NCBI GenBank assembly: GCA_947174565.1
Contig: CAMWJL010000012.1
Location: 1-37,386 of the forward strand
Length of the DNA stretch: 37,386 nt
Origin: an uncultured Prevotellaceae bacterium
GTDB lineage: Bacteria; Bacteroidota; Bacteroidia; Bacteroidales; Bacteroidaceae
Direction: 5' to 3'
Shown: in pieces, positions 35,631 to 37,210 of the stretch
Position numbering within the stretch: the first letter of the stretch is position 1
Layout of the letters: every line of letters begins with the position of its first letter
The notes under the pieces: generated by a model
Told to the model about the DNA's origin: nothing
Database searches by the model: none
The model's input: the letters and a program-made list of their open reading frames with translations, nothing else
Program-made: the position numbers and the translations under genes

Positions 35631-35641
35631 GCCTCTTAATA

Positions 35642-35758
35642 GGTGTGACTCACACCCCTTTTGGGGTCTGAGTCACACCCTCTTTGGGGTCTGAGTCACT
35701 CCCCTTTTGAGGTCTGAGTCACTCCTCTTTTGGGGTCTGAATCACTCCGTTTTTTTGT
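35642..35758. repeat. Five-unit 23-bp tandem array after menA
   Basis: Units begin at 35644, 35667, 35690, 35713 and 35736, consensus TCTGAGTCACTCCCCTTTTGGGG. Each holds a CCCC-TTTT-GGGG mini-hairpin. Units 1 and 2 together form a larger hairpin (GGTGTGACTCA 35642-35652 with its complement 35669-35679). The last unit decays into a T7 run. It likely terminates menA; there are no spacers, so it is not CRISPR. Confidence 0.85.
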
Positions 35759-35807
35759 ACTCTGCGATGATTCTTTCACCCCCCTTCCACACGCACAAAT
35801 GTCCCTT

Positions 35808-36149
35808 TTAGATGTGGTTTTTCCCCGTCTTCTCAAAAAAGCATACCCAATCCTTCTTGCTTCTCGCATTTATTTTGTACATTTGCCCTCGCAATTCGTT
35901 CGGCATCCTTTTGTGCCGTCCGTCTTGCAAATAGACATCGTGGGCATATTGGATCAACGTATTCAATTCTGAAGGTTCTGTGTTCAAAATAGTCCGACCA
36001 GACATTTCTACGAACCGGAGGAACGGGATACGCCTGTCTTTAGGCGTACCCTTTCCTTTCATTTCGTAGAAAAGGTTAACTCTTTGGTCGGACGCTACCT
36101 GAACACAGGAATGAAAAACGGAAAGCGGTGCGCCTTCTTTTGTGTCCAC
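35808..36149 (-). CDS. Doubtful hypothetical ORF across the menA-lpxL intergenic region
   Basis: 113 codons from a GTG at 36149. Composition is protein-like (RRIPFLRFVEMSGRTILNTE, then MPNELRGQMYKINARSKKDW) and I recognise no family. Against it: GTG start, no promoter seen, and a nested palindrome of about 135 nt runs through its middle, which is hard to reconcile with ordinary coding. It could be a worn mobile-element fragment. Confidence 0.3.
   Translation of the reverse strand: MDTKEGAPLSVFHSCVQVASDQRVNLFYEMKGKGTPKDRRIPFLRFVEMSGRTILNTEPSELNTLIQYAHDVYLQDGRHKRMPNELRGQMYKINARSKKDWVCFFEKTGKNHI
35857..35885 (+). promoter_or_regulatory. Candidate promoter for a long leader upstream of the acyltransferase
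   Basis: TTG (35857-35859), 18-nt spacer, TACATTTG (35878-35885). If used, the transcript would carry about 305 nt before the ATG at 36197, including the nested palindrome. Confidence 0.4.
35976..36110. other. Nested imperfect palindrome, possible structured RNA or MITE-like element
   Basis: Four stacked helices: P1 35976-35986/36100-36110 (11 bp, one wobble), P2 35992-36000/36085-36093 (GTCCGACCA, 9 bp), P3 36005-36014/36063-36072 (TTTCTACGAA, 10 bp) and P4 36025-36035/36042-36051 (10 bp, one bulge, 6-nt loop). The P2 right arm, extended to 36084-36096, also complements 36182-36194 over 13 bp, ending 2 nt before the acyltransferase ATG. Confidence 0.55.
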
Positions 36150-36156
36150 ATCAGTG

Positions 36157-36164
36157 TAAATTTG
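36157..36164 (+). promoter_or_regulatory. Candidate proximal -7 box of the acyltransferase gene
   Basis: TAAATTTG matches TAnnTTTG, 32 nt upstream of the ATG at 36197. If this is the real promoter the nested palindrome would be outside the transcript. Confidence 0.45.
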
Positions 36165-36196
36165 TTTAATTAGATTTCAAAAGCGTCCGACCAACT

Positions 36197-37210
36197 ATGC
36201 AGAAGAATCTAAAAGGGGATAACCGTGCCCCTATGTCAGCAGATGCTGGCATGAAGAACGGTGGAATGAAAGCGGTAAAGAACCTCCGTATGTTGAGATT
36301 TAGAATTGTGAGAAGTTGCTTGTATGCCGTCAGCTTTTTGCCACTGTCCGTACTCTATGCCGTGAGCGACTTCCTGTGCCTGTTCGTCAGCCGTTTCTAC
36401 CGTACTCGCGTAGTGCGCAGCAACTTGGCTGGCGCATTCCCCGAAAAGAGTGAGCACGAACGTCGCAAAATAGAACGGCGGTTCTACCACCAATTCTGCG
36501 ACAATGTAGTGGAAAACATTAAAGCCTTGTCCATGTCGCGTGAGGACATGATTCGGCGCATGACTTTCTCTGGCTTGGAACACATTCGTCAACGCCACGA
36601 AGCTGGACAGAGCTTGCATTTTCTCTACTCGGCTCACATGGGTAATTGGGAATGGATAGCCTCCATCAACTACCACCTATGTCCATGGGGACATTCCGCA
36701 CAGGTATATCACAGAATCCATGACAAAGCCTTCGAGCGTCTCTTTCAAGACTTGCGCGCCAAAGCTGGAGGCATCAACATCGAGATGAAAGAGACCTTCC
36801 GCCGCATCTTGCAATTGCGCAAAGAAGGGAAGAACTACACCATTATATTCATTAGTGACCAACAGCCCACGTGGAACAGTATTCACCATTTCGTGCCTTT
36901 TCTCAATCATGACACTGCCGTGTTCATCGGTGCGGAGCACATTGCCCGAAAAGTGGACGCATTTATGTGTTACGGACGCATGACACGACCCCGTCGGGGC
37001 TACTACCACCTTGAAATCGTACCGATGGAAGACCATCCCTCTTCTGTGCCAGAAAATACTTTGACTAACAGATACTGCAATATGTTGGAGCAAGATGTGC
37101 GAGAGCATCCGGAAATGTGGCTTTGGACGCACAAGCGTTGGAGTCGCACAAAGGAAGAATGGTTGCGGCGCAAGCAAACCAAAGAGGACAAAAGTCAATC
37201 CTCCGAATAA
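36197..37210 (+). CDS. LpxL/HtrB-family lipid A acyltransferase
   Basis: 337 aa inner-membrane-associated acyltransferase that adds secondary acyl chains to lipid A or a related lipid. It has an N-terminal hydrophobic helix (about 40-65, LYAVSFLPLSVLYAVSDFLC), the conserved RVVRSNLAGAFPEKS, the catalytic H-x4-E in SAHMGNWEW (H147, E152) and a downstream FISDQQPTW and HKRWSRTKEEW typical of the family. The ATG at 36197 gives about 28 extra residues; a start at 36266 (MKAVKNLRM) is equally family-like and would place the nearby GTCCGACCA repeat well inside the leader. Confidence 0.93.
   Translation: MQKNLKGDNRAPMSADAGMKNGGMKAVKNLRMLRFRIVRSCLYAVSFLPLSVLYAVSDFLCLFVSRFYRTRVVRSNLAGAFPEKSEHERRKIERRFYHQFCDNVVENIKALSMSREDMIRRMTFSGLEHIRQRHEAGQSLHFLYSAHMGNWEWIASINYHLCPWGHSAQVYHRIHDKAFERLFQDLRAKAGGINIEMKETFRRILQLRKEGKNYTIIFISDQQPTWNSIHHFVPFLNHDTAVFIGAEHIARKVDAFMCYGRMTRPRRGYYHLEIVPMEDHPSSVPENTLTNRYCNMLEQDVREHPEMWLWTHKRWSRTKEEWLRRKQTKEDKSQSSE

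Follow-up and report, generated by a model that had tools for sequence, protein, structure and literature searches.

What is the function of a long nested palindrome that stands upstream from a lipid A acyltransferase family gene (Lip_A_acyltrans, 36197-37210, encoding a 337-aa protein) in an uncultured Prevotellaceae bacterium, and of the third copy of one of its arms next to the start codon? Judged by sequence comparison, the palindrome belongs to a family of structured mRNA leaders in Prevotella-like gut bacteria, able to adopt either of two mutually exclusive folds and located mostly before unrelated anti-phage defence operons, so that a single type of RNA switch may decide when defences are switched on in these bacteria. 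The window, i.e. the whole stretch of DNA analyzed, is 37,386 nucleotides long, and the parts of the leader and the gene behind it are on its plus strand.

Anatomy and covariation of the leader

The first-pass annotation had described a palindrome of four helices and a third copy of the P2 arm, complementary to 36084-36096 and ending 2 nt before the ATG at 36197; both were present as described. The palindrome (35976-36110), formed by the helices P1 to P4, is far beyond chance expectation (z -6.3; 0/200 shuffles). Its elements include Z (GGTTC, 35974-35978), the 5' strand of an early competing stem; A (GTCCGACCA, 35992-36000), the 5' arm of P2; Z' (GAACC, 36012-36016), the partner of Z within the internal loop between P3 and P4; B'C' (36042-36065), the P4 3' strand plus its flank, which doubles as the 5' strand of a terminator-like stem T; and A' (TTGGTCGGACGCT, 36084-36096), the partner either of A in P2 or of A2 at the start codon. 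C2B2 (36108-36135), the 3' strand of stem T, forms 24 bp with B'C', and a U-rich run (TTCTTTT, 36135-36141) lies at the foot of this stem. The third arm copy, A2 (AGCGTCCGACCAA, 36182-36194), pairs with A' over 13 bp, compared with 9 bp for P2 in the window. A stretch TTAGATT (36170-36176), recurring in relatives as read from the alignment, is able to pair with AATCTAA (36206-36212), thereby enclosing A2 and the start codon.

The box TACATTTG at 35878-35885 matches TAnnTTTG, which we take to be the Bacteroidota promoter -7 box. The transcript would start near 35890, giving the leader of about 305 nt proposed from this promoter match by the first-pass annotation. The same box was detected 60-150 nt upstream from the core in 53 of 54 members, compared with 9 of 194 control windows. 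A second promoter match at 36157-36164, previously raised against the RNA reading, was absent from that position in 11 comparable rows and was rejected as a downstream promoter; one relative (L015) carries such a match 14 nt away. Between the promoter and the palindrome lies a 5' domain (35892-35970), which is variable between members but, as read from the alignment of 5' regions, contains a recurring short hairpin P0 (TTGGAT, 35949-35954, with ATTCAA, 35961-35966) and a GACATnGnGG stretch. No consensus fold of this domain was obtained from that alignment, and the domain is a possible sensor region. As regards a possible leader peptide, no ATG occurs within 35886-36041 of the window, and a GTG-started frame is, by eye, not kept between classes. 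Between menA and the promoter of the leader, at 35639-35745, a unit of about 23 nt (TTTTGGGGTCTGAGTCACNCC-like) is tandemly repeated, and short matches to these repeats are located near the leaders of L010, L012, L014, L016, L017 and L020.

The first alignment, of 13 copies, gave a fold of 50 pairs, 16 of them with compensatory changes. In an alignment of 56 distinct rows, fitted to a covariance model and thereby favoured in its pairing figures, 90.2% of cells pair and 38 of the 50 pairs show changes on both sides; the slid controls drop to 42-51% paired cells. The covariation score was 0.464 against 0.200 for shuffled alignments, and none of 500 shuffles reached the observed value on any of the five measures. 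With the weak tail hairpin excluded, there were 254 G.U pairs and 20 A.C pairs, indicating that the structure is kept as plus-strand RNA. The tail hairpin (helix 8), in which only 78.2% of cells pair and the bases are shared with stem T, was omitted from the covariance model R2. The compensatory changes looked for in homologues were thus found, and action as coding-strand RNA is indicated at the level of sequence. The results support the earlier proposal of a cis-acting RNA whose pairings exclude one another: co-variation was observed between the third arm copy and its pairing partner.

Stem T and the start-codon pairing

Stem T was found in all 55 members tested, with an energy of -32.1 kcal/mol for the own strands against -26.2 for swapped strands (0/2000 swaps); an ungapped permutation test was not significant (167/1000). 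The U-run columns contain on average 73% U over the 55 members, with a minimum of 55%. In each of these members a terminator-like stem with a U-run is exclusive with another conserved stem. P4 and the tail of B2 are almost invariant.

A copy of the A2 type, complementary to A', was detected in 18 of 56 members at p<=0.02, located 1-4 nt before an ATG or overlapping it, and this ATG opens a long downstream frame in 14 of the 18. Members of the DpnII and BREX classes yielded no A2; for the DpnII class, a candidate pairing at the start codon (CACAGAAGC-like, within codons 2-5) was too weak (p about 0.03-0.35) and was rejected. The pairing at the start codon thus forms only a part of the putative switch, and what all 55 members tested have in common is stem T. 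In L097, L171 and L096 the ATG after A2 opens only short frames of 20, 7 and 9 codons, respectively; those of L097 and L171 seem to run into the start of the methyltransferase gene, as in translational coupling. Two relatives, L019 and L020, lack almost all of the palindrome (35977-36106). Their A2 has drifted from CCGACC to CCGAAC, as would be predicted if its sole role were to pair with A'. These natural deletions are ready-made controls. The first codons ATGCAnnnGAATCT (MQxNL; 36197-36214 in the window) are common to unrelated proteins, including those of L178, L015 and L017, which apparently reflects the ability of these nucleotides to form pairs with TTAGATT upstream from the start.

Distribution of the family and the genes behind it

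Similar DNA was detected in 15 of 45 genomes of the genus, the source genome included. The conserved unit spans about 35846-36255 in 13 aligned rows, and the gene behind it differs. By reading of translations, an EptA-like sulfatase/phosphoethanolamine transferase follows in seven loci (L009-L014 and L020); for L132, from the G008 region, this assignment was made by Pfam. A Mrr/DEAD restriction enzyme follows in three loci (L015, L017 and L018). L016 keeps only the 5' half of the leader, before a cytosine methyltransferase gene, and L015 carries a second copy of the promoter plus 5' domain before a KilA-N-like gene, both genes being named by reading the translations; the two cases look like reuse or decay of a cassette.

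For wider searches, covariance model R1 was built from the 13-copy alignment and R2 from 63 copies in 64 chosen loci. The large searches scored the best 6 candidates per genome (the best 9 for the phylum), so that their counts are lower bounds. R1 detected the leader in 17 of 45 genomes of the genus (E<=0.01), in at least 37 of 399 genomes of the family (E<=0.001), and in at least 2 of 393 genomes of the order, both belonging to the family of the source genome. R2 detected it in at least 37 of 399 family genomes, covering at least 10 of 30 genera (E<=0.0001), and in at least 2 of 296 genomes of the phylum, namely the source genome and G956 of another family. The G956 copy (L190, minus strand; E 1.3e-7) combines the palindrome with a stem-T-like duplex (-24.2) and seven consecutive T, and is followed by a secreted-looking protein; no TAnnTTTG was present within 260 nt upstream, and this copy is a possible distant member. 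A distant relative in the source genome (L192, G000:C31:11547-11713; R2 E 2.6e-4), found by the covariance model only, precedes a protein with a weak match to a secretion-tail domain, and L183 and L184 carry look-alike copies, which hints at a sister family.

A scan of an 84,980-species collection for the P4 motif yielded 75 loci, with titles naming Prevotella, Prevotellaceae, Bacteroidaceae, Muribaculaceae, Bacteroidales, Bacteroidia or only 'bacterium', and in many cases ruminant gut samples. Viral contigs gave no match. No Rfam family exceeded the gathering threshold in the window, and the T-box model gave no match; a permissive scan of 35700-36300 yielded a single miRNA match far below threshold, and 20 related loci gave no match except for three tRNAs in L064.

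Among the 75 loci, which were picked by exact motif and thus give a more biased gene mix than the family-wide R2 set, the first downstream gene was a member of the DpnII-type methyltransferase cluster in 46, BrxP in 5, type III Mod in 4, HKD-Snf2 in 4, EptA-like in 3, Mrr/DEAD in 2 and type IIG in 1. The remainder comprised 3 with rearranged or degraded neighbours and 7 with a short ORF or none in the stretch examined. In the representative L119, MethyltransfD12 is followed by the DpnII endonuclease, and in L114 BrxC adjoins BrxP. The family-wide R2 search gave at least 44 rows, from which five opposite-strand shadows of the same palindrome were dropped, leaving at least 39 places; genes were classified by HMM, by membership of a cluster with a tested representative, or by reading of the translation. 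Defence genes stand behind the leader at 26 of these 39 places, a raw count without a genome-wide background rate for comparison. They include DpnII, BREX, DndC, SspB, type III, type IIG/ISP and other methylases, Hma, a DrmD-like helicase, HKD-Snf2 and a candidate PDC-M33A, the ORF of which starts 350 nt downstream. Envelope genes follow at 8 places (six EptA-like, the acyltransferase of the window and one Acyl_transf_3) and other genes at 5 (L092/L189 and the distant L181-L184), coding for secreted- or lipoprotein-like proteins or PD40. The suggestion that the element controls lipid A acylation is too narrow: in relatives the leader precedes EptA-like genes, and the family stands mostly before restriction-modification, BREX and other defence operons.

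The acyltransferase itself scores below the NCBIfam cut-offs of the named subfamilies. The upstream gene menA is common to the window and G008 (L009), yet the G008 leader precedes an EptA-like gene, and 16 of the first 20 residues are equal between the two proteins behind the leader, indicating that the acyltransferase appears to have taken the place of the original gene behind the leader and start codon. In the 14 other leader-matching genomes, the acyltransferase relatives reported are on contigs other than that of the leader. Pieces of a second lipid A acyltransferase in the source genome (G000:C114:7635-8237 and G000:C117:1-315), 61% and 79% identical to the window protein, are perhaps the ordinary orthologue split over two contigs; if so, the window gene is perhaps a paralogue with a borrowed leader and N-terminus.

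Proposed mode of action and known systems

The best explanation, which we consider probable, is that the leader acts as a bistable attenuator. In the ON fold, the structure of which is shown by covariation, the palindrome forms as an antiterminator-like structure with its 3' half buried; this would block stem T and leave the start codon free. The pairings of the OFF fold are shown by co-variation as well, and their effects are predicted. Pairing of Z with Z' would confine the 5' half of the palindrome to a loop, and B'C', thereby released, would pair with C2B2 to form the stem of about 24 bp with its U-rich run, which would terminate transcription before the gene. In one class, pairing of A' with A2 across the ribosome-landing site would act as an additional lock, on translation. 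Since the same leader stands before many unrelated phage-defence operons and a few envelope genes, it most likely couples them to one shared signal, which might be sensed by the 5' domain, the transcription speed or a trans-acting factor. A wider proposal, which we put forward tentatively at somewhat less than even chance, is that in Prevotella-like bacteria many unrelated operons for phage defence or for the modification of phage receptors are under the common control of one RNA-switch family, carried as a promoter-plus-leader cassette; the switch would sense infection (e.g. through altered transcription) without a dedicated regulator protein and would impose a double lock, on both transcription and translation.

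Antitermination by a specialized trans-acting factor such as a NusG paralogue, recognizing the P4 hairpin while the RNA itself senses nothing, is compatible with the attenuator anatomy and differs only in the trigger. Antitermination by a NusG paralogue serves capsule operons in Bacteroides, and paralogues with leader targets are known. The near-invariance of P4 and the B2 tail fits such a factor, but that of P4 is also explained by its double use in stem T, and we regard this reading as credible though rather unlikely. We give a lower chance, about that of an outsider, to a purely translational switch, in which stem T is non-terminating and the alternative folds merely expose or hide the start codon. 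The position of A2 at the ATG, the long frames that follow, the recurrence of TTAGATT/AATCTAA around the ATG in the A2 class (read from the alignment) and the interruption of the U-runs by C or G agree with it, whereas the presence of stem T with a U-rich run throughout and the failure to find A2 in the DpnII and BREX classes do not. A DNA-level element, either a recombination/inversion site or the operator of a dimeric DNA-binding protein, might account for one arm being present three times, once in inverted orientation, and for different genes following the same leader at one locus; the strand asymmetry between G.U and A.C, the conserved order of promoter box, palindrome and gene, and the lack of an inverted isomer among the 13 aligned rows make it very improbable, and it was rejected on the asymmetry. 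Least probable of all is the insertion of a mobile, MITE- or REP-like palindrome before the gene, as the first-pass annotation had alternatively suggested from the nested palindrome: L019 and L020 do lack nearly exactly the palindrome stretch and different genes do follow at the same site (window and L009), but the search for other copies of 35976-36110 gave one sequence-level copy in the 2.81 Mb analyzed of the source genome (the other nine matches were of 14-19 nt), no similar DNA was detected in phage, plasmid and viral collections, no target duplication was evident by eye in the 13-row alignment, the promoter box stands at a similar place in 53 of 54 members, and the covariation is of the RNA type with G.U preference, the single copy and the covariation being decisive.

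The proposed bistable attenuator was compared with known systems. No such leader was found in the open-access literature covered on defence regulators and in general RNA catalogues, including PMC8040213, PMC12255303 and PMC2864571; as covered there, defence control is mostly by protein regulators, and the RNA side consists of general catalogues. The HMP2 candidate RNAs include palindromic candidates in Bacteroidetes, some with terminators, with one of which this leader possibly overlaps; in contrast to the present family, the neighbours named in the main text are phage-related domains, TPR, ruvA, tonB and uvrC, and that text nowhere uses the terms restriction, methyltransferase, defense or lipid A (PMC8040213). 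The WYL repressors BrxR/CapW, together with RptR and CapK/CapS, resemble this leader in that one type of regulator is associated with many unrelated defence systems, but they are proteins acting on transcription (RptR: PMC12255303), unlike an RNA leader.

In the literature examined, repressor proteins are the main explanation for how costly defence systems are kept quiet until needed; one RNA attenuator common to the DpnII, BREX, Dnd/Ssp, type III, type IIG and Hma operons would, if true, be a different answer to defence control, and would suggest why lipid A and other envelope enzymes, able to change phage receptors, carry the same leader. The leader is also a sequence handle for new defence genes, any gene behind it being a candidate. 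In Bacteroides, UpxY and other NusG paralogues act by antitermination in the leaders of envelope operons of Bacteroidota, which this leader would resemble in logic only. Closest in design are transcription attenuators and riboswitch platforms (T-box, ANTAR/EutV and ribosomal-protein leaders), with which it shares mutually exclusive antiterminator-like and terminator-like stems in the 5' leader and an earlier competing stem. Unlike these, it is without an Rfam match and without an ATG in 35886-36041 of the window, its putative antiterminator is one long nested palindrome, a start-codon lock is apparently added in one class, and it precedes unrelated defence operons.
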